This document shows positions 18,482-28,195 of a DNA stretch of 40,304 bases, piece after piece (position 1 is the first letter of the stretch; each line of letters opens with the position of its first letter). Position numbers and translations under genes: made by a program. The DNA lies in NCBI GenBank assembly GCA_947176585.1, contig CAMWRI010000005.1, positions 1 through 40,304 of the forward strand, given 5' to 3'. The DNA is from an uncultured Porphyromonadaceae bacterium. GTDB lineage: Bacteria; Bacteroidota; Bacteroidia; Bacteroidales; Muribaculaceae. The notes beneath the pieces were generated by a model. The model saw only the letters and a program-made list of their open reading frames with translations, was not told the DNA's origin and searched no databases.

Positions 18482-19912
18482 TTATACGGAGAGAAAATAG
18501 AAGACGAAAAGAACGGCGGCAATGCCTGAACCGCCGGCGACAAGCCAGGTGCGCAAGCGCGGATAATCATTGCGACACGTCCACAAGAGTGAGGCGCAGG
18601 GCACGAAAAGGCACAGCAGAGGGATTCCGTAGCGCGACACGGTGCCACCGAAGATAAAGGCCACGCCTGCGTAGAACGCCAGCCCCACCAGGCACAACCT
18701 GAGCGCCGGAGTGAAGCTGCGCTTTCGCAGCTTCTTGAAAAGGAAGAACGCCACGAGCAGCCCCGTGAAGTATCGGCAGAACCCGAAATATGCCAGCGCT
18801 ATAAATGGGCCGAAAGCCAGATTGTTGGCGAAATTCCAGGGCAATGGTATCAGAAATTGTACACCCAGGGTAATCGGCAGTAGCAGCAGGCGTTTCCATA
18901 CGGGTGCCTTGAAATAAAACGAAAAATTATCGTAGTACGCGGCGTGCTGTGGCTGGTGGGCCGAGTCGTCAAGGTCGGTTCCAAGTTCAGGAGCGAAGTG
19001 TGCTTGGGCCGGTGTGGCGGCCTCCAGTGAATGAAAATACAACAGAATCACCGCACAACACACCGATATAGCGGCGGCAATCGTGATGTTACGTTTGTCG
19101 TGGGCACACACACCCGGAATCAAAACGATGAACACGGAGAGATAATTCGGACGCGCATAGCAGGTTATGAACACCGCGGCCGCAATAGCTGCGAGCGGTC
19201 GCAGCAAGTTGCCGCCGTAGCGAAGCCGTATGGCCGACCATGCCACCAGGGCCGTGGCCATAGCCATAGGTGCGTCCTTAAGCAGAATGGTGCCGGAGGC
19301 TATCAGGTCGCCCATCAGCGACATAAGCACGATTGCACACAAGGCCGCTTTTCTTTGCCGCGCGGCATCGCGGATAAAACGGGATGTCAGCGCTCCGGTG
19401 AGCGCTATTGTGCATAGAACGCAGAAGCAGTTGAAAAGCAGTGGTATGGAGATGTCGATTGCAGATGCTTTCATGAGCAATCCTATGAAACGTCCGTAGC
19501 CTTCGGCCGGCCATAGCGACTCCACGGCATGGTCGCTTCCCAGATGATACAAGGCGTTGTTCCATGCACTCCAATGATCAAGATTCATCAGCAGCGGGCG
19601 CGACACGTCGCCGCAGCCCCACACATGTACAAAATAGTGGCAGTTGATAACCACTCCCACCGTCATCACAACAGAGGCCCCCCATAGCGTCCACGCTGCC
19701 GCCCGCGAGCACCACGCGCGCAGAACGCACGGAAGCGTCACCACAATATAAATAAGAGTCCATCCCAGTGATGTGGTGAGCATCGAAGCTCCCGGCAGCA
19801 GCAGATTGCTCATTCCCACGATGCAAAAACCTGCGGGAATACCATATAATATCGGTGAGGCATGGCATGCCCCAAGCAGCGAATCGTATTTATGCCTTAA
19901 ATTCATCGCCAT
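18482..19912 (-). CDS. Multi-pass membrane protein, function unknown
   Basis: I do not recognise this 476-residue protein. It has about ten to twelve hydrophobic segments and an extramembrane loop near residues 95-140 (GCGDVSRPLLMNLDHWSAWN). This layout and a second loop with acidic residues (FAPELGTDLDDSAH) are compatible with a GT-C glycosyltransferase or polymer transporter, but no diagnostic motif is seen. The start ATG at 19912 is nine bases after the -7 box TAATTTTG; the longer frame would start inside that box. It is divergent from the glsA operon, so a shared envelope role is possible. Confidence 0.72.
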   Translation of the reverse strand: MAMNLRHKYDSLLGACHASPILYGIPAGFCIVGMSNLLLPGASMLTTSLGWTLIYIVVTLPCVLRAWCSRAAAWTLWGASVVMTVGVVINCHYFVHVWGCGDVSRPLLMNLDHWSAWNNALYHLGSDHAVESLWPAEGYGRFIGLLMKASAIDISIPLLFNCFCVLCTIALTGALTSRFIRDAARQRKAALCAIVLMSLMGDLIASGTILLKDAPMAMATALVAWSAIRLRYGGNLLRPLAAIAAAVFITCYARPNYLSVFIVLIPGVCAHDKRNITIAAAISVCCAVILLYFHSLEAATPAQAHFAPELGTDLDDSAHQPQHAAYYDNFSFYFKAPVWKRLLLLPITLGVQFLIPLPWNFANNLAFGPFIALAYFGFCRYFTGLLVAFFLFKKLRKRSFTPALRLCLVGLAFYAGVAFIFGGTVSRYGIPLLCLFVPCASLLWTCRNDYPRLRTWLVAGGSGIAAVLFVFYFLSV

Positions 19913-19921
19913 ACGCGGATG

Positions 19922-19953
19922 CAAAATTAGTTTAAAAATGGCTTGTGCACAAA
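19922..19953 (-). promoter_or_regulatory. Promoter of the minus-strand membrane gene
   Basis: On the minus strand TTTG (19950-19953) and TAATTTTG (19922-19929) are exactly 20 bases apart, both perfect matches. The 5' leader to the ATG at 19912 would be only about five bases. Confidence 0.75.
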
Positions 19954-20001: not shown

Positions 20002-20009
20002 TAATTTTG
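20002..20009 (+). promoter_or_regulatory. -7 box of the glsA operon
   Basis: TAATTTTG lies 16 bases before the ATG at 20026. A weak -33 (TGTG, 19978-19981) is found at the correct 20-base spacing. It diverges from the promoter at 19922-19953. Confidence 0.65.
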
Positions 20010-20025: not shown

Positions 20026-20874
20026 ATGACACCGCAGGAACCTATGCGCATAAATCTCAGGCAGCTGCTTCGCGACCGTCTCGGTCGTTGGAGCCGGCTT
20101 GTGCCCGGCTTTTTGCGGCGGAAACTCGAGCGTCTTGTGTGTCAGGACCGGTTGAACTGGCTGCTGGAGCACAACTTCCCGCGTCGAGGTTCCGAGTTTT
20201 GCCGTGGCGTGCTTGCTGATCTCGACGTTGAGCTGCGCGTGGAAGGGGTGGAAAACCTGCCGCCGCCGTCGCAACGGCGCGTGTTGCTTGTGTGCAATCA
20301 CCCTTTGGGTGGTCTTGATGGTATCAGCCTTATCGCCTGGTTCTCCGAGTATTTCGGCTGCGAGCTGCAGGTGGTGGTGAATGATCTGCTCATGGCCGTG
20401 GAACCTCTTGGAGAGTGTTTCGTGCCCGTCAACAAGCACGGCGCGCAGAGCCGCGGCACCGCCCGCTCTATAGATGCCGCCATGGCTTCGGACGGCCCTG
20501 TGCTGATGTTCCCGGCAGGGTTATGCTCCAGGCAGTCGCCCGACGGTACGATCGCCGACCCCAAATGGAACAAAATGTTTTTGCGTAAGGCCCGTTCCTA
20601 CGAGCGCGATGTGGTGCCCCTGTATTTCGACGGCCGCAACAGCGACCGCTTCTACAAGGCCGCCCGCCGCAGAGTGCGTGCCGGTCTGAAATTCAACTTC
20701 GAGATGGTGCTTTTGCCAGGCGAGGTCTTTGCCAGCAGCGGCAAGAGCTTTACCGTCACGTGCGGCCGTGCCTTGCCGTGGACATCGCTGGCGCCGGCGA
20801 GCGACCGGGAGGCTGCACGCATCAGAAATATTGTGTACAATCTTTCTTCACCAGCCCATCACACTAATGGATAA
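20026..20874 (+). CDS. glsA: O-acyltransferase, glycine-lipid (GlsA/OlsA) type
   Basis: This 282-residue acyltransferase is related to 1-acylglycerol-phosphate acyltransferases. The catalytic block NHPLGGLDG (His92, Asp98) is followed by the substrate block VPVNKHGAQSRGTARS and the FPAGLCSR motif (162-169). In Bacteroides thetaiotaomicron this subfamily (GlsA) esterifies a second fatty acid onto N-acyl-3-hydroxy-acyl glycine to make glycine lipids. The spacing between His and Asp is five residues rather than the usual four, as I recall for this branch. The next gene is the matching N-acyltransferase, which overlaps it by 8 bases and strengthens the assignment. A general lysophospholipid acyltransferase is the alternative. 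Confidence 0.82.
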   Translation: MTPQEPMRINLRQLLRDRLGRWSRLVPGFLRRKLERLVCQDRLNWLLEHNFPRRGSEFCRGVLADLDVELRVEGVENLPPPSQRRVLLVCNHPLGGLDGISLIAWFSEYFGCELQVVVNDLLMAVEPLGECFVPVNKHGAQSRGTARSIDAAMASDGPVLMFPAGLCSRQSPDGTIADPKWNKMFLRKARSYERDVVPLYFDGRNSDRFYKAARRRVRAGLKFNFEMVLLPGEVFASSGKSFTVTCGRALPWTSLAPASDREAARIRNIVYNLSSPAHHTNG

Positions 20875-21805
20875 GATAATTGCCCCGGTAGACCCGCTGC
20901 TGATCGAGAGCGAACTCACTCCCGAGCGTTTTCTTCGCCACACCAACCGTGGCGGCAATCTGCTTTATGTGGTGGATGCGCATTGCGCTCCCAATACAAT
21001 GCGCGAGATAGGCCGCCTGCGCGAGATCGCTTTCCGCACAGCCGGTGGCGGAACCGGGCTTAGTTGCGACATTGACAGCTACGACACCATGGAGCCGCCA
21101 TGCCGGCAGCTTATAGTCTGGGATCCGGAGAGCAGGCAGATTCTCGGCGGCTACAGATTCATCTACGGCAGCGATATACGCTGCGATGAGCATGGTCGCC
21201 CGCGCATAGCCACCAGCCACATGTTCAATTTCTCCGAGAAATTCCTGCGCGAATTTCTGCCGTACACGCTCGAATTGGGTCGCAGCTTCGTGCGTCTCGA
21301 ATATCAAAGCACCCGTGCGGGCGTGAAAGCCATATACGTGCTCGACAATCTGTGGGACGGTCTGGGCTCCCTCACGGTGATACATCCGGAGCTCCGCTAC
21401 CTATTCGGCAAGATGACGATGTATCCCAGCTACACGGCGGCCTGCCGCGACATGATCCTCTATTTCCTCCACAAGCATTTCCCGGACCCCGATCATCTGG
21501 TGACGCCCATCCACCCCCTCCCCGTGCATTACGACGAGGCTGCCATGGAGCGTCTTTTCACGGGCGACTGCTTCAAGGCCGACTACAAGATACTCAACGC
21601 CCAGGTACGAAGCCACGGCGACAACATCCCCCCGCTCGTCAACGCCTACATGAGTCTGTCGCCCACCATGCGGATGCTCGGAACTGCCGTGAACGATGAG
21701 TTCGGCGATGTGGAGGAGAGCGGCATTCTTATCACCATCGACGAAATCCTCGATGAGAAGAAAGAGAGGCACATCTCCACCTACGAAGACCACAAAAGTT
21801 TATGA
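20867..21805 (+). CDS. glsB: GNAT N-acyltransferase, glycine-lipid (GlsB/OlsB) type
   Basis: This 312-residue protein belongs to the OlsB-like GNAT group. Landmarks are the helix MREIGRLREIAFRTAGGGTG, the central strand RQLIVWDPESRQILGGYRFI, the motif ELGRSFVRLEYQ, and LWDGLGSLTVIHPELRYLFG. The family attaches a 3-hydroxy fatty acid to the amine of an amino acid: glycine in Bacteroides (GlsB) or ornithine in other bacteria (OlsB). With the preceding O-acyltransferase it forms a complete two-step amino-lipid pathway. The ATG at 20867 overlaps the glsA stop by 8 bases, and the stop overlaps the next gene by 4 bases. Glycine versus another amino acid cannot be read from the sequence. Confidence 0.85.
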   Translation: MDKIIAPVDPLLIESELTPERFLRHTNRGGNLLYVVDAHCAPNTMREIGRLREIAFRTAGGGTGLSCDIDSYDTMEPPCRQLIVWDPESRQILGGYRFIYGSDIRCDEHGRPRIATSHMFNFSEKFLREFLPYTLELGRSFVRLEYQSTRAGVKAIYVLDNLWDGLGSLTVIHPELRYLFGKMTMYPSYTAACRDMILYFLHKHFPDPDHLVTPIHPLPVHYDEAAMERLFTGDCFKADYKILNAQVRSHGDNIPPLVNAYMSLSPTMRMLGTAVNDEFGDVEESGILITIDEILDEKKERHISTYEDHKSL

Positions 21806-22557
21806 TACCAAAGGTGATCCACTACTGCTGGCTGAGCGACGGGCCCATGCCGGAGCGCCTGCGCAGCTACGTCGACACGTGGCGCCGCATATTGCCCGAC
21901 TACGAGCTTAGGCTGTGGGACTACAAGCGATTTCCGCGAGGCAAATCCAAGTGGGTCGACGAGGCTTTCGACAATAAGAAATATGCCTTTGCTGCGGATT
22001 ATATAAGGGCCTATGCCCTCTATCACGAGGGTGGAATCTACCTCGACAGCGACGTGGAGATGCTCAAGCCATTCGACGACCTGCTGCATCTGCCCTATTT
22101 CATGTGCCGCGAGACGGGTTCGCGTTGCCCCGAGGCAGCCGTGGTGGGCTTCGAGGCCGGTTCGGAGCTGTATCGCGCAGTGCTTGAAAGATACGACAGT
22201 ATCTCTTTCGTCAGGCCCGACGGCACGCTCGACATCACTCCTATGCCCGACGTGCTGAACATCGTGTTCAGGCAGCTGGGTATGGAGTTCGAGGATGTGG
22301 AGTCGCCGTCAGATGTGCGCCCGGACGCACACAGATTCTTCATGCTCCCCAGCGACTATTTCAGCCCCGTCAATATCGAGAATCTCGAGCTGCGCGCAAC
22401 GCCGCGCACCTATTGCATCCATCGTTTCGCAGGCAGCTGGAAGTCGCCTTACCACCGGTTCAAGAAGCGCCTGCAGCAGATGCTGGGCCCGCGCATGGCC
22501 CAGCATATAATCAATGCTAAAAGAAAAATCAAGAACTTCCCGAATAATGGAAAATAA
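21802..22557 (+). CDS. DXD glycosyltransferase (GT32/capsular polysaccharide type)
   Basis: This 251-residue GT-A glycosyltransferase starts IPKVIHYCWLSDGPMPE, the typical GT32/Gly_transf_sug beginning. It has the nucleotide-sugar DXD motif as DSD (82-84) within GGIYLDSDVEML, then ADYIRAYALYHEGG just before it, and a C-terminal CIHRFAGSWKS. Such enzymes move hexoses or N-acetylhexosamines onto lipids or glycans. There is no membrane helix; the basic C-terminus could contact the membrane. Its 4-base overlap with glsB and 11-base overlap with the deacetylase gene tie it to the amino-lipid operon. The sugar donor is not predictable. Confidence 0.88.
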   Translation: MIPKVIHYCWLSDGPMPERLRSYVDTWRRILPDYELRLWDYKRFPRGKSKWVDEAFDNKKYAFAADYIRAYALYHEGGIYLDSDVEMLKPFDDLLHLPYFMCRETGSRCPEAAVVGFEAGSELYRAVLERYDSISFVRPDGTLDITPMPDVLNIVFRQLGMEFEDVESPSDVRPDAHRFFMLPSDYFSPVNIENLELRATPRTYCIHRFAGSWKSPYHRFKKRLQQMLGPRMAQHIINAKRKIKNFPNNGK

Positions 22558-23197
22558 AAAGATACTGGTGATAGCTCCGCATGCCGACGACGAAGTGCTC
22601 GGCGTCGGCGGTTATCTGTTGCACGAAAAAGCGCACGGCGCCGAGATAATGTTGGTGATAGGCACCATAGGTGGCACCGATATCCGTCAGAACTACGATG
22701 TGCGCATGGCCGAGTTCAATGCCGTGTGTGAGCGTCTCGGAGCCAGGGGCGAGGTCCTTTTTAAGAATATGGACACCCTTATGGACACTTTGCCTGCCTT
22801 CGAGATCACTTCGCGCCTCGACAAGATTGTGGACAGTTTCCGCCCCGACGAAATATTCATCAACTATCGCAGTCTGCATCAGGACCATATCAAGCTCTAT
22901 GAATGCGCGCTGGCCTCCATGCGCCTCCGCGAGGGATATTCACCGCGGCTCGTGGCTTTATACGAGTATCCCTTCGCCACCACGCAGGTAGGACCCATAG
23001 GCGGAGGCTACATGTATCACGACATAAGCGACTGCATTGAGGAGAAAGTGGCGCTATTTGAGCTTTATGCCACGCAGATAAGAGCCACACCGTCGCCTCT
23101 CAACCGCGAGGGTGTGCTCGCTCTCGCCCGCATCAGGGGAGTTGAATGCGGCACGGAATATGCCGAGAAGTTTTATGTGCAAAAAATGATGTTATGA
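22547..23197 (+). CDS. PIG-L/LmbE family deacetylase
   Basis: This 216-residue zinc-dependent N-deacetylase has the family metal motif PHADDE (11-16, the usual AHPDDE) and a second motif RSLHQDH. Relatives deacetylate N-acetylglucosaminyl groups: PIG-L on GlcNAc-phosphatidylinositol, MshB and BshB on thiol precursors. I chose ATG 22547 over a longer frame because the family begins a few residues before the metal motif. It overlaps the glycosyltransferase gene by 11 bases and the ATP-grasp gene by 4 bases. In this order it would remove the acetyl group from the sugar just added by its neighbour. Confidence 0.92.
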   Translation: MENKKILVIAPHADDEVLGVGGYLLHEKAHGAEIMLVIGTIGGTDIRQNYDVRMAEFNAVCERLGARGEVLFKNMDTLMDTLPAFEITSRLDKIVDSFRPDEIFINYRSLHQDHIKLYECALASMRLREGYSPRLVALYEYPFATTQVGPIGGGYMYHDISDCIEEKVALFELYATQIRATPSPLNREGVLALARIRGVECGTEYAEKFYVQKMML

Positions 23198-24087
23198 AAT
23201 ACGTGGTATTTGAGGCCGGTAGCCGTGCAGGCTTTTCAGCGGAGTTTTTTTATCTGGCATGGAAGAAAAACCATCCCGGGCGCGACGTGCAGCTCGTGAT
23301 GGGCGACAGCGATGCCACCTTCGCGCTTATTCCTGCCGAAGATGGCGTTATGCGCGAGAACGACAAGGTGGCCGCTGCTCATCTCGGCGGTGAGGGATAC
23401 CGCGCGTTTCCCGGCGACGAGCTCACACGACAGCGCGACGATGCAGTGCGCGGAGCCATTTCGTCCGACCGCATGGCCGCCGTCGAGACCTGGTATTATG
23501 AAAAAGCGCGGGTGAACCGCACCCTTGAGCGCCTCGCCGGTGATGATGCAGGAATCCGCGTGCCACGCACGTTCATCATGGAGAGCGTGTGCGTGAAGCC
23601 CAATTCCGGCTCTGCCGGATCCCGCGGTGTGGAATTCAAGGAGAATGTGTGCGTGTCGGAGCTCATCGATATCAAGCGCGAATACGTGGTGGACGTGCTT
23701 GAGCAGGATGGTGACTACCGCATTTATGCCCGCGAGACCAAGCTGCGCTGCGGCTACGATAAACTCGTGCGCCTGCTTCCCGGCGACGACCTGCTGGTAG
23801 CCGCCGTGCGCAAGTTTCTCCACACGGTGAACGCCCGCTGGGATGCCACGCTGTTTCACGACGTGTTTCACCTGCAGATAGCCGAGAACGCCGCCGGAGA
23901 GTACTATTTCATAGAAGCGTCGAAGCGAATTTCCGGCAGTGCTATCGTCAACATTTTCAAGGGTTTCAATCCCTTCGACGTGCTTGAGGGTACCGAGCCC
24001 GCCGTGTACGACAATCCATTTGAAGACGACCGCTGGTATCGCTTCGAGGACTTCGTTGCCCGTCTCTCGCTCGTCACTTCCCGGTAG
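23194..24087 (+). CDS. ATP-grasp ligase
   Basis: This 297-residue protein is an ATP-grasp enzyme. It has a pre-ATP-grasp region (1-110), the nucleotide-binding strand and loop VCVKPNSGSAGSRGVEF with Lys135, REYVVDVLEQDGDYRIYARE, and the metal-binding end QIAENAAGEYYFIEASKRIS (Glu241, Arg245). ATP-grasp enzymes join a carboxylate to an amine or thiol through an acyl phosphate. As the last gene of the operon, after a deacetylase that would expose an amine, it could add an amino acid or similar group; that is inference. Its last 14 bases overlap the end of the convergent GT4 gene. Confidence 0.83.
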   Translation: MKYVVFEAGSRAGFSAEFFYLAWKKNHPGRDVQLVMGDSDATFALIPAEDGVMRENDKVAAAHLGGEGYRAFPGDELTRQRDDAVRGAISSDRMAAVETWYYEKARVNRTLERLAGDDAGIRVPRTFIMESVCVKPNSGSAGSRGVEFKENVCVSELIDIKREYVVDVLEQDGDYRIYARETKLRCGYDKLVRLLPGDDLLVAAVRKFLHTVNARWDATLFHDVFHLQIAENAAGEYYFIEASKRISGSAIVNIFKGFNPFDVLEGTEPAVYDNPFEDDRWYRFEDFVARLSLVTSR

Positions 24088-25075
24088 CTGCCTTTTCCAG
24101 CAGCGAGCGGTATGCTTCAAGCATCCTGCTCTCCGTGAAGCATTGCTCGTAGCGCAGCCTTGCGTTGCGGGCAATTGCTTTATAATCCTCACTGCCGGGA
24201 ACGGGCAGATGTCTGATGGTACTCTTGAGCTCGTCGAGGTCGCGGCAAGCGAAGCCGGTGACGCCGGGCTGGTTGATTTCGAGTACGGAGGGTAATGTGT
24301 TGGTGATCATCGGGCGTCCGTACATGCAGGCTTCGATAAGGCTTAGCGGCAGACCTTCTTTCTGCGAGAACAAAAGAATATAGTCGTAGTCGGCTATCTG
24401 CTTCGAGGGGTCTATCTGCCCCGAAAAGTGCATATCGTGTTTTGAACGAAGTCGTTCCTCCAGTTCCCGCTCCTGCGGGCCGCGGCCTGCAAAGTACAAT
24501 TCGGTGCCTTCGGGCAGATGCCCGTCCAAGGCATCGGCAATTTCCAATTGGCGCTTCACGGAGCATATTCTGCCCATAAGAAGGATTCTTATTCCCGGTC
24601 CGCGCCGCGGCTCTTTTACTCTTTTGTCTGATAATCCGTTTGGAATCAGGGTGATGCGCTCGGCGGGAAGCCTGAAATAGTCTTTAAGGTTGGCCTCCAC
24701 GGCCTTTGATATAGCCACAACATGCTCCGGAAACAGAGTAAAGCGGCGGAGATTGTCGAAAACATTGTGAGCCACGTGCACCACCTTCAGTTTTCTGAGC
24801 ACCAAAGTTTTGTAAAGCATAAGCCGCGTGGTGGATTTGCGGTCATGCGACATAAACACGGCATCAGGCCACTTACGCATAATTTCCTTTGCGTACTTAA
24901 GGGACAGCGGCCTGAAATCTGCCGTATCATGATATGACCGAGCTATTCGTTCCGCGGGCGTGCGTGTGAGCACAACCGGCACATCGTCGGGCGAAAAACT
25001 GCCGGCGAGGCGGAGCGCCATATCCTGCGCGCCCCCCGTGTTGGCGAAGTTGTTGTATACGCTTATGACCTTCAT
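24074..25075 (-). CDS. GT4 family glycosyltransferase (last gene of EPS operon)
   Basis: This 333-residue GT-B glycosyltransferase begins MKVISVYNNFANTGGAQD with the acceptor-side glycine loop. It has LIPNGLSDKRV at the domain junction, ILLMGRICSVKRQLEI at the donor domain start, and the retaining E-x7-E motif in EGLPLSLIE. The product is unknown. The start at 25075 overlaps the previous gene by 4 bases (ATGA). A longer frame to 25123 is rejected because it reaches into that gene without family similarity. The stop overlaps the converging ATP-grasp gene by 14 bases. Confidence 0.92.
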   Translation of the reverse strand: MKVISVYNNFANTGGAQDMALRLAGSFSPDDVPVVLTRTPAERIARSYHDTADFRPLSLKYAKEIMRKWPDAVFMSHDRKSTTRLMLYKTLVLRKLKVVHVAHNVFDNLRRFTLFPEHVVAISKAVEANLKDYFRLPAERITLIPNGLSDKRVKEPRRGPGIRILLMGRICSVKRQLEIADALDGHLPEGTELYFAGRGPQERELEERLRSKHDMHFSGQIDPSKQIADYDYILLFSQKEGLPLSLIEACMYGRPMITNTLPSVLEINQPGVTGFACRDLDELKSTIRHLPVPGSEDYKAIARNARLRYEQCFTESRMLEAYRSLLEKAATGK

Positions 25076-26232
25076 TTTACAGCGAATGTATTTCTCGCGC
25101 AGTATAGCGCGTGCAGATACCATGCGTAGAATTCGATATAATCGTTGCGGTTCTTGCCGTAGACGAATATCTCCGGCGCGAGTTTTCCGGTGCGTGGCGA
25201 GAAAATTCGGTCATACATATAGTTGACGAGTTTCTCCACCCGCTTTTCATCCGGGAGATATATCGAATAGAAAGTGATGGCTTCCGAGAGATCTCGACCG
25301 TCGAGGCGCTGGAATATCCAGGTGGTGCCGGGGTTGAAACGCGTGTCGTAGCGTTGCGGAATCAGGTACCTGTCGGTTTCGGTGAATTGCGAGCGGTAAA
25401 ATTCCACACCTTTGTTGATGCAATCGGCGAGTCGGTCTATCGCTGCATCCTTCACGTCCATGAGGGCTTTGAGAATATAGCTCTGGTGGAAGCCGTCTAT
25501 AGCCTTGCGGTGGGGTGGCCCGTAGTAGTACCAGCTTCCGTCGGGATTTTGATTCTTAATAATATATGATATTCCGCGTTTGCCGAGCTCCACATATTTG
25601 TCGATGCCATAGGTGGTGCCTGTGCGGATAAGGAAAGAACTGATAATGGCGCTGGCGTTGTAGATCACGTCCTTGAGATGGTGGCCGTAGAAGAAATATA
25701 TGCCATCTTCGCCATGGTCTTCATATCCGAGTTCCTGAGTGAGGTAGCGGCATATGGCCATGAGCACCTCACGGCGGTCCTCCTCGTCAAGGGCCCCGTA
25801 GCGCAACAGGTAGTCACCGAAAAAAACGGTGTTGAGCGGCGTGGGATCGTCTCCGGAATCCTCGTAAAGGCTGATTGATATGCGTATCCCCTGGCGCAGG
25901 GCGAAGTTGCGGGTGAGGGGGGATTGAAGTTGTTCCATGACGCGCCGGGTGAGCTGTGCGCCGGTCTTGGTATCGCCACCCGCTCCGCAGGCAGCAAGCG
26001 ACGCCACGGCCTCGTGGGGCGTGTACGGGCTCCGGCCTATATCCTTCTTGCTGCGAAGATTGAAGGGCAGCAGCCGGAAAGCAGTGCGGATCAGCATATT
26101 CAGCTTGCGGTTGCGGGTGAAAATCCGGGGCGGCACGTAGTTGCACTCAATATAGTGATAGTCGTGCGCCTCAAGCCACCGTTCGGCAGCCCCGATCATG
26201 CGGTTGATCTTGTCTAAGGTGGTCGGGTTCAT
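25072..26232 (-). CDS. Alpha-toroid-like protein of the EPS operon, function unknown
   Basis: I do not recognise the function of this 386-residue soluble protein. It is rich in amphipathic helices and has a QW-like repeat NQNPDGSWYYYGPPHRK, followed by IDGFHQSYILKALMDV. This is the pattern of (alpha/alpha) barrels found in prenyl cyclases, glycoside hydrolases and uronate epimerases. No signal peptide is seen. It overlaps genes on both sides by 4 bases, so it is translated with the glycosyltransferases. A sugar-modifying enzyme such as an epimerase or lyase is possible, but no catalytic motif can be named. Confidence 0.72.
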   Translation of the reverse strand: MNPTTLDKINRMIGAAERWLEAHDYHYIECNYVPPRIFTRNRKLNMLIRTAFRLLPFNLRSKKDIGRSPYTPHEAVASLAACGAGGDTKTGAQLTRRVMEQLQSPLTRNFALRQGIRISISLYEDSGDDPTPLNTVFFGDYLLRYGALDEEDRREVLMAICRYLTQELGYEDHGEDGIYFFYGHHLKDVIYNASAIISSFLIRTGTTYGIDKYVELGKRGISYIIKNQNPDGSWYYYGPPHRKAIDGFHQSYILKALMDVKDAAIDRLADCINKGVEFYRSQFTETDRYLIPQRYDTRFNPGTTWIFQRLDGRDLSEAITFYSIYLPDEKRVEKLVNYMYDRIFSPRTGKLAPEIFVYGKNRNDYIEFYAWYLHALYCARNTFAVK

Positions 26233-27128
26233 TTGCTGTTGCGTTTATGGTGGTGGATCAGTTGCCACGAGTTCACGGTATTGTGCCATGCCACGTAGGC
26301 GGCGGGAGCCACCGATGCCACGGGATTCAGATAGGCGAGTGCAAGCCATATTGCCAGCACTGTATTCTTTTGTCCGAGGCTCTGACCGCCGCTCACCTTG
26401 TCGCCGAAACGCGCTCCCACGCGGCGCCCTATATAGAACTGGATGAGGCATACCACGCCCGAGCCGAGGGCGAGCGCGACGATTTCGGGCAGGTGGTCGT
26501 GGTCGTAGTTGCGGATGATGAAGCTCACGGAACTGCCCACCACGATGAAAAGCGAAACCGCCCACATGTAGAACGAAAGAGACTGGTTCTCGGCAAGAAA
26601 ATCATGGAAACTGCGCCACGCGTAGCGCAGGATGAATGCAGTGATGATGGGAAGGAGAAGCAGGGGCAGCACGGCGGAGCAGATGCGGTAAAAAGAATCG
26701 GCGAACGTCATACTGGTGTCGCCTATGGCCGCGAGAACCACGGGGCCGGTGATGGCCACGAACACGTTGCACAGCAGGGAATAGGTGGCCACATGGCTTA
26801 TACTGCCGCCGAGCATGGCCGTGATCACAGGAGCGGCTGTGGCCGTGGGCACGAACACACAGATAAACAGCCCCGTGGCCACATTGTGGTTCAATGGCAG
26901 CAGCGCAAGCAGCACGATGGCGGCGAAGGTCATCTGGGCAAGCATCAGCCATGCCTGGAAGCGGTGGGGCTTGAACTCGCGCGGCTCCAGGCGGCAGTAG
27001 GTGATGGTGAGCATCGCGAAGATTAGGAAGGGCGAGAGAAATGTGAGGTGCCCCATCCATTTGTAGAACACCACTCCGCCCAGCATCGCAATCGGAAGCA
27101 TCCAATCTTTGAGTTTCTGACGCATCAT
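26229..27128 (-). CDS. Bile acid:sodium symporter (BASS) family transporter
   Basis: This 299-residue membrane protein has about nine to ten helices. Landmarks are FVPTATAAPVITAMLGGS and GGQSLGQKNTVLAIWLALAY, which resemble the paired sodium-site helices and the discontinuous helix of the BASS family. In mammals the fold carries bile acids; bacterial members carry pyruvate, pantoate or other organic anions. Sitting in an exopolysaccharide operon, with 4-base overlaps on both sides, is unusual. It might move a precursor or counter-ion, or it might be a passenger gene. The substrate is unknown. Confidence 0.83.
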   Translation of the reverse strand: MMRQKLKDWMLPIAMLGGVVFYKWMGHLTFLSPFLIFAMLTITYCRLEPREFKPHRFQAWLMLAQMTFAAIVLLALLPLNHNVATGLFICVFVPTATAAPVITAMLGGSISHVATYSLLCNVFVAITGPVVLAAIGDTSMTFADSFYRICSAVLPLLLLPIITAFILRYAWRSFHDFLAENQSLSFYMWAVSLFIVVGSSVSFIIRNYDHDHLPEIVALALGSGVVCLIQFYIGRRVGARFGDKVSGGQSLGQKNTVLAIWLALAYLNPVASVAPAAYVAWHNTVNSWQLIHHHKRNSK

Positions 27129-28195
27129 TTCTTTTTTTCTTGTAAAGACTTGTGGAGGGCAATCACCTTTTCTGCCACGCGCTCGGGTAAGAACTTCGCG
27201 GCGATCACCCGGTTTTTTCTGCCCATTTCCGGAATCACGTCGCGGTGGTCGATAAAGAATTTTATGGCCTCGAATATCGTTTCGGAATCTTTGGGAGTGA
27301 CGTAGATGCCGTTCACACCGTCTGCAATCACCTCGGCCATGCCGCCCACAGGTGTCACTATGGCAGCCAGGCCTGCTGCCATAGCCTCGAGCAGCGACAT
27401 GGGCTGCCCCTCGGCGTAAGACGGCAACACAAATACATCGTTGCTCTCTATAAGGCGTGCTTTGGGCTCTCCGCTCATCCAGCCGTGGATGCTTACGATG
27501 TTTTCAATCCCGTTGCGGGCGATGAAGTCGAGCGCATCGCGATAGCCTGAGCCGTCGCCACCCACGTCAAGGTGCACGCGGCCTTGAAGCTCGTCCTTGT
27601 GGTCGGCGATGGCTGCGAGCAGCTCGTCCAGACCCTTGGTATGGTCGATAATGCTTAGAAATAGCAGCCGGAGCTTGCCTGAGTTGTTCTCTTTCCGCGT
27701 CACCCCGGTGAATTCCACGGGATTCTCTATCACCACCACATTGGTTAGTCCGAATTCCCGGCGCAGATAATCGGCCCATCCTTGCGTAAGGGCAACTACG
27801 GTGTCGCGTTTCCGTAGGCTGCGGGCCACCTTTTCGGGCCCTATCGAGGCGAAATGTCTCTGAAGCGCGCCGTTGTGGATGTGGTGCACGGTTCGCATCC
27901 CCAGAAACCGTGCCCAGTCGAGAAGCAGGCTTTTTCTGGTCCACGAGCCGCGCACCGAGCCGTGGGCATGCAGGGTGTCGAAGCCTTTCATGCGATAGAA
28001 GGGCAGTTTTATCATTGCCATAGCGAAGGCGAGGATCGATAGCGCCTTGTTGCGGAAATGAGTGGTGGGAAGATACGTAATCTCACCCAAAGCTTTCTTA
28101 TAAAGACCCATCACGGAAGCTATACCGCCGCGCGAGCGCAGGTCGGGACCGGCGAAAAGCACGCGGCTCAATATACGGGATGAATTGGCGGTCAT
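27125..28195 (-). CDS. GT4 family glycosyltransferase
   Basis: This 356-residue GT-B glycosyltransferase has the N-terminal motif LFAGPDLRSRGGIASVM, HHIHNGALQRHFA (acceptor-domain histidines), VIENPVEFTG at the domain hinge, LLFLSIIDHTKGLDELL and the E-x7-E motif in EGQPMSLLE, followed by TPVGGMAEVI. It adds one sugar to the lipid-linked repeat unit on the cytosolic face. Both ends overlap neighbours by 4 bases. The sugar is not predictable. Confidence 0.93.
   Translation of the reverse strand: MTANSSRILSRVLFAGPDLRSRGGIASVMGLYKKALGEITYLPTTHFRNKALSILAFAMAMIKLPFYRMKGFDTLHAHGSVRGSWTRKSLLLDWARFLGMRTVHHIHNGALQRHFASIGPEKVARSLRKRDTVVALTQGWADYLRREFGLTNVVVIENPVEFTGVTRKENNSGKLRLLFLSIIDHTKGLDELLAAIADHKDELQGRVHLDVGGDGSGYRDALDFIARNGIENIVSIHGWMSGEPKARLIESNDVFVLPSYAEGQPMSLLEAMAAGLAAIVTPVGGMAEVIADGVNGIYVTPKDSETIFEAIKFFIDHRDVIPEMGRKNRVIAAKFLPERVAEKVIALHKSLQEKKK

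Follow-up and report, generated by a model that had tools for sequence, protein, structure and literature searches.

Which product is made by a set of sugar-conjugate genes that stands directly behind the glycine-lipid genes glsA and glsB in a probable gut bacterium, and on which acceptor is it built? This question is raised by a five-gene operon at positions 20026..24087 of contig CAMWRI010000005.1 (assembly GCA_947176585.1) from an uncultured Porphyromonadaceae bacterium. The stretch analysed, called the window below, covers positions 1 to 40,304 of this contig. In the operon, glsA and glsB are followed by genes for a GT32-type glycosyltransferase, a PIG-L/LmbE-type N-deacetylase and a divergent ATP-grasp-like protein. 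The reading that we tentatively favour, with somewhat less than even confidence, is that the last three genes form one unit making an amide-capped amino-sugar conjugate, here most likely on a glycine lipid. The operon comprises the following features:

20002..20009, + strand: Bacteroides-type -7 box TAATTTTG, upstream of glsA (pattern match)
20026..20874, + strand: glsA, lyso-glycine-lipid O-acyltransferase, 282 residues (NF053697, PF19576)
20867..21805, + strand: glsB, glycine N-acyltransferase, 312 residues (NF053696)
21802..22557, + strand: GT32-type glycosyltransferase, 251 residues, DSD motif at 22045-22053 (PF04488)
22547..23197, + strand: PIG-L/LmbE-type N-deacetylase, 216 residues (PF02585)
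23194..24087, + strand: divergent ATP-grasp-like protein, probable amide-forming ligase, 297 residues (hhalign; directly behind PIG-L)

Operon structure and enzyme families

The five genes lie on one strand with successive overlaps of 8, 4, 11 and 4 bases. This layout had been proposed in a sequence-only reading of the window, and was confirmed from the coordinates, the strand, and the start and stop codons. The overlap lengths depend on the starts chosen, since longer in-frame starts are available for genes 2, 4 and 5. The same reading placed the operon behind a single promoter box. The box TAATTTTG agrees with the Bacteroides-type -7 consensus, and it is also present just upstream of glsA in the own-genus loci L042, L043 and L044. 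The pattern is weak by itself, with 21 occurrences in the window against 10.9 expected by chance, and no full TTTG...TAnnTTTG promoter was found before glsA, there being no TTTG 17-23 bases ahead of the box.

The identities of the first four genes, as named in that reading, were upheld. GlsA scored 293 bits with NF053697 (equivalog cut-off 260) and also matched PF19576, while GlsB scored 503.9 bits with NF053696 (equivalog cut-off 300), both models being from NCBIfam. The third gene product matched PF04488, the Pfam family that corresponds to GT32, at 54.5 bits (gathering cut-off 23), and carries the DXD motif as DSD at residues 82-84. No NCBIfam model matched this protein at E 0.001, the GpgS-type synthase NF053787 included. 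The PDB listing for GT32 includes toxin chains, and 26 of its 32 rows are stretches that span the DXD region. A TcdA/TcdB Pfam match covered 27 residues. A toxin reading of the protein was rejected, these likenesses being put down to a shared glycosyltransferase motif.

The fourth gene product matched PF02585 (PIG-L) at 59 bits, against a gathering cut-off of 28.2. The metal motif of this family is AHxDDE/HxDH, and it is intact: the metal-site residues H12/D14/D15/E16 and H111/D113/H114 are identical in all 28 aligned sequences. The profile of this protein matched solved LmbE-related, diacetylchitobiose deacetylase, BshB and MshB proteins. Among the NCBIfam models the closest was BshB, but the BshB1 score of 51.9 bits did not reach the equivalog cut-off of 182.5. 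Elsewhere in the own genus the PIG-L profile gave matches that fell far behind, with E 3e-21 at best, in a single genome, and values above 1e-7 for the others.

The fifth gene product had no Pfam match at E 0.001. When a profile of the window protein and 27 relatives was compared by hhalign with a true ATP-grasp alignment, a probability of 63% was obtained (E 7e-5, 145 columns); the control alignments, of NeuB and PIG-L, reached 0.53% and 0.49%, respectively. In a Pfam scan of the 28 members, with the threshold at E 1, all signals were weak, namely DUF1297 in 14 (best E 0.0011) and ATPgrasp_Ter in 3 (best E 0.025). In the PDB, a sequence search with the protein found nothing at E 1, and a search with its profile returned one chance match (E 0.36). 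By its profile the fifth protein is probably an ATP-grasp enzyme, and it likely acts as a ligase.

The PIG-L/ATP-grasp pair in related loci

To place the pair of PIG-L and ATP-grasp-like genes, a genome contig collection with one genome per species for 84,980 species was scanned, and with a six-row ATP-grasp alignment this gave 27 related loci. Because the scan relied on two N-terminal peptide patterns, distant ATP-grasp relatives are missed by it. The titles of all 27 loci name Bacteroidia, Bacteroidales or one of the families or genera within that order, and 13 of the titles mention a ruminant stomach compartment. In the window's own family, probably Muribaculaceae to judge from the titles of related records, the ATP-grasp-like protein was detected in 6 of 198 genomes, and in the own genus in 4 of 49. 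Order-wide searches found it in 1 of 247 genomes with the single protein and 1 of 393 with the profile, in both cases the window's own genome; these draws held few genomes from the own family.

A PIG-L gene lies directly upstream of the ATP-grasp gene in all 27 related loci. In 18 of them the pair has a glycosyltransferase gene ahead of it on the same strand, belonging to one of two families: GT32 in three loci, and GT4 in one group of 13 and another of two. These results suggest that sugar transfer, deacetylation and ligation go together as more than an accident of the window.

Four contexts of the pair (A to D) were distinguished. Context A, the order glsA-glsB-GT32-PIG-L-ATP-grasp, was found in three loci (L042, L043 and L044) of the own genus only; besides these, the pair is joined to glsAB only in the window and in a further copy that one genome holds.

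In context B (13 loci; functions read in L045, 996-11399), the genes encode a MacB-type ABC exporter, a membrane-fusion protein, a TolC-like protein, a GT4 glycosyltransferase, an SMR protein, PIG-L, ATP-grasp, a 352-residue protein and a DUF3108-like protein. The GT4 and SMR genes are present in 13/13, with only the small SMR gene standing between GT4 and the pair. At least part of the MacB, membrane-fusion and TolC exporter is present in all 13, outer exporter genes being absent at contig ends and L063 having the TolC-like gene only. A membrane or exported product fits this context, given the SMR protein and exporter genes alongside the pair. The GT4 of L045 scored 83.7 bits with NF053787, against a cut-off of 480.

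Context C (nine loci; functions read in L008 and L010) has genes for a 229-residue protein, a thioredoxin-like protein, PIG-L and ATP-grasp, with a convergent GT2 gene in all nine. In L010 a second GT2 gene lies nearby, and this locus, with its two GT2 genes, could be a glycan locus. The thioredoxin-like gene (as in L010:5208-9841) is of DUF4369/thioredoxin-like type, and a pyridoxal-phosphate decarboxylase-type gene follows in two of the nine loci.

Context D, a bare GT4-PIG-L-ATP-grasp cassette between fumarase and priA, was found in L050 and L062; functions were read in L009, which covers the region of L050, and L062 has the same neighbours by clustering. The GT4 proteins of contexts B and D have only a 131-residue match of 30% in common. 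In trees of both PIG-L and ATP-grasp, contexts A, B and D each form a single group. Context C holds together in the PIG-L tree, with support 72/45, but it is not a single group in the ATP-grasp tree, and there D may fall within it.

Conservation and selection within the genus

In the own genus, the four genomes with the ATP-grasp-like gene hold five such loci, and GT32, PIG-L and glsB adjoin it at all five. The five-gene order is retained among own-genus loci even where glsA identity falls to 65%, and the 4-base overlap of glsB with the glycosyltransferase gene is kept in the four loci compared (window, L042, L043 and L044). The retained order and overlap suggest selection for co-expression. 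Third codon positions were the most substituted in 20/20 gene comparisons, and the nonsynonymous rate (dN) was well below the synonymous rate (dS) in all 15 that could be computed, the other five containing ambiguous bases. The five genes are under purifying selection.

In one genome, 71% complete, the five-gene locus occurs twice, on separate contigs (L074 and L075); mixed strains seem a likelier source of these than duplication.

Co-transfer of the last three genes was also considered. Their dS was 0.57 for GT32 and 0.49 for PIG-L against L075, and 0.49 for ATP-grasp against L042, compared with 1.16 for glsA and 1.02 for glsB (L075). These low values were not counted as evidence for co-transfer, as identity is uneven over the stretch as a whole, varying between 64 and 92%.

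Flanking genes

Upstream and divergent from glsA (18482-19924, - strand) lies a gene for a 480-residue protein that is likely, by its sequence, to be membrane-bound and for which no Pfam or NCBIfam match was found. Downstream, at 24074-28195 on the - strand, a glycosyltransferase gene and other genes converge on the end of the operon. The first of these encodes a group-1 glycosyltransferase and overlaps the end of the ATP-grasp gene by 14 bases. L042 and L075 share this downstream region with the window, L043 shares part of it, and L044 has no match to it.

Comparison with described systems

The first two genes resemble the GlsA/GlsB system for glycine-lipid synthesis of Bacteroides both in their equivalog scores and in the order glsA-glsB. 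They differ from it in that three sugar-conjugate genes follow, whereas the cluster described in the available text of PMC12746155 consists of two genes. Searches of the open-licence literature found no report of a glycine lipid with a glycosyltransferase in Muribaculaceae, and no description of the glycosyltransferase/PIG-L/ATP-grasp set or of the PIG-L/ATP-grasp couple.

Glycosylation, deacetylation by a PIG-L enzyme and amidation is the order of chemistry in the bacillithiol (BshA/B/C) and mycothiol (MshA/B/C) pathways. The window genes share this order, and their PIG-L protein is distantly BshB-like. They differ in having GT32 in place of GT4, and an ATP-grasp-like protein where those pathways have BshC or MshC. 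BshC was found in none of eight genomes by a search that was positive in 3 of 14 control genomes. With this result and the BshB1 score given above, membership in either thiol pathway was not borne out. The part of the sequence-only reading that stood is the three-step unit of sugar transfer, deacetylation and amide capping.

By analogy, the nearest described logic is that of two operons for aminoglycolipids, GpgSDF and HexSDF. According to the available text of PMC12713373, GpgSDF of Pseudomonas aeruginosa combines a glycosyltransferase, a deacetylase and a predicted flippase to place an amino sugar on a membrane lipid, yielding glucosamine-phosphatidylglycerol. The window shares the logic of glycosyltransferase plus deacetylase, but the families differ, GpgS being GT4 and GpgD COG3233, against GT32 and PIG-L here. 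As described there, GpgSDF is also a three-gene operon without ligase or aminolipid genes. A flippase gene is in turn absent from the window operon. In Clostridioides difficile, HexSDF (a glycosyltransferase, a deacetylase and a flippase-like protein) is required for an aminohexosyl glycolipid, according to the available text of PMC10128005. The likeness to the window is again glycosyltransferase plus deacetylase; HexSDF differs in that its deacetylase is annotated as a polysaccharide deacetylase, its acceptor is of diradylglycerol type and its three genes include no ligase. Among the contexts of the pair, context B, with GT4 and SMR, resembles GpgSDF and HexSDF most.

Proposed product and rival explanations

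The comparative genomics supports a unit of glycosylation, deacetylation and amidation, with a chemistry predicted from the enzyme families. We infer an N-acetyl sugar donor, the order of chemistry, the ligase activity, a lipid acceptor and the carboxylate used. In the first step, an N-acetylhexosamine would be transferred to the acceptor by the GT32 enzyme. The PIG-L enzyme would then take off the acetyl group, and the freed amine would be joined by the ATP-grasp enzyme to a carboxylate, which might be that of an amino acid. The acceptor would most likely be a glycine lipid, or else a derivative of the glycine-serine type that has a free hydroxyl. A glycine lipid appears the likeliest acceptor because the three genes stand behind the only glsAB copy found in this small clade (the window's own genome has a single GlsB match) and are probably co-expressed with it. 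For this clade it is the single most likely choice, at a probability somewhat short of even, and the choice is drawn from operon structure in one genus.

Several observations weigh against the glycine-lipid reading. The pair has no adjacent glsAB in 24 of the 27 loci. In 20 of these 24 genomes a GlsB match lies outside the locus of the pair; this co-presence is uninformative, since nearly every genome of the family matches GlsB (188 of 198). The neighbours of glsAB also vary. In 14 own-genus loci without the cassette, glsB is followed by other genes, purB-like in four (by clustering; function read in L088). Among 20 family loci, chosen for having an ATP-grasp match, nine (L166-L173 and L175, e.g. 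L166:7475-14202) have a legionaminate-type cluster after glsAB, with Wzi-like, lipocalin-like, LegB, PRK12767-type ATP-grasp and NeuB proteins (functions read in L166). Eight of these nine were assigned by protein match and L171 by coordinates, and all five gene clusters of the set were called in six (L166, L167, L168, L169, L173 and L175). Given this variety in genus and family, adjacency to glsAB is by itself weak evidence, hitch-hiking of the three genes may account for their place, and a sugar cassette after glsAB does not imply that glycine lipid is its acceptor.

The enzymes add further points on the same side. Many genomes of the genus (24 of 49) carry GT32 relatives, which outside the cassette have 30-51% identity; two of the three nearest were annotated, and one of these sits in a polysaccharide locus. 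The operon carries no flippase gene, and the SMR protein of L045 resembles ArnE/ArnF, below cut-offs (36.7 against 92 and 33.2 against 99 bits). ATP-grasp enzymes usually have Asn in an ExN motif and Lys in a KP motif. In the present family Ser replaces this Asn in 28/28 members and Arg replaces the Lys in 17/28, the window protein keeping Lys. These departures make ligase activity uncertain.

A serious rival, also of less than even probability, is that the same kind of capped amino-sugar product is built on a different acceptor, be it undecaprenyl phosphate, some other membrane lipid, lipopolysaccharide or a soluble molecule, the site behind glsAB being simply insertion-tolerant and well expressed. 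The many pairs apart from glsAB, the bare cassette in the two context-D loci, the SMR protein and exporter genes that accompany the unit in 13 loci, and the varied glsAB neighbours all point this way. The five-gene order and the 4-base overlap, kept down to 65% identity in glsA, argue against it and suggest selection for co-expression. It is unlikely that the cassette belongs with the polysaccharide-type genes on the minus strand from 24074 onward, modifying a surface polysaccharide or its lipid-linked repeat. The overlapping group-1 glycosyltransferase gene, the conservation of the region in L042, L075 and partly L043, the GT32 relative in a polysaccharide locus and the two GT2 genes near the pair in L010 are consistent with such a role, but the downstream genes are on the opposite strand, and L044 shows no DNA match beyond 24068 although it keeps the five-gene unit. 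The sequence-only reading had proposed comparing co-occurrence with glsAB and with capsule loci. Of the outcome that it named as refuting, one half came true, in that the pair mostly occurs away from glsAB. As to the other half, no capsule setting was seen in the annotated representatives covered (L008, L009, L010 and L045), of which L010 could be the glycan locus noted above.

Two further explanations have very small probabilities. In one, the ATP-grasp protein serves as the missing ligase for attaching serine to glycine lipid (flavolipin/lipid 654/doreamide), and the glycosyltransferase and PIG-L enzymes make side modifications. The serine-attaching step is stated as unidentified in the available text of PMC12746155 and PMC10191378, and the protein would escape the published Pfam searches, as described there, since it matches no Pfam family. 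However, glycine-serine lipids are reported in several Bacteroidota in the available text, the ATP-grasp-like protein occurs in 6 of 198 family genomes against 188 for GlsB, and its gene follows PIG-L in all 27 related loci and usually lies away from glsAB. In the other, the product is a soluble low-molecular-weight thiol or cofactor of mycothiol/bacillithiol type. The enzyme logic is the same, BshB is the NCBIfam model closest to the PIG-L protein, and a thioredoxin-like gene stands just upstream of the pair in 9 of the 27 loci; the lack of BshC in the eight genomes and the low BshB1 score speak against a thiol, and a cytosolic thiol is ill-suited to the glsAB and exporter contexts.

Biological implications

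The proposed amide-capped glycine lipid can be put into a wider frame, which is possible but rather doubtful as a whole. A Muribaculaceae-like gut clade would make an amino-acid-capped hexosaminyl glycine lipid by means of a new ATP-grasp family with an obligate PIG-L partner, and mostly ruminant Bacteroidales would reuse the pair, with other glycosyltransferases, an SMR protein and an exporter, for related capped conjugates. If the acceptor is not the glycine lipid, PIG-L and ATP-grasp would still be an enzyme couple for which no description was found in the open-licence literature. The pair is compact and portable, its second half has no Pfam match, and it may yield a new class of amino-sugar amides, a possibility that can be tested by mass spectrometry. 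The glycine lipids of gut Bacteroidota are host-active, being ligands of TLR2 and of G protein-coupled receptors according to the available text of two reviews. If the favoured reading is true, a sugar-decorated, amide-capped glycine lipid would have altered charge and bulk, and probably altered recognition by the host.

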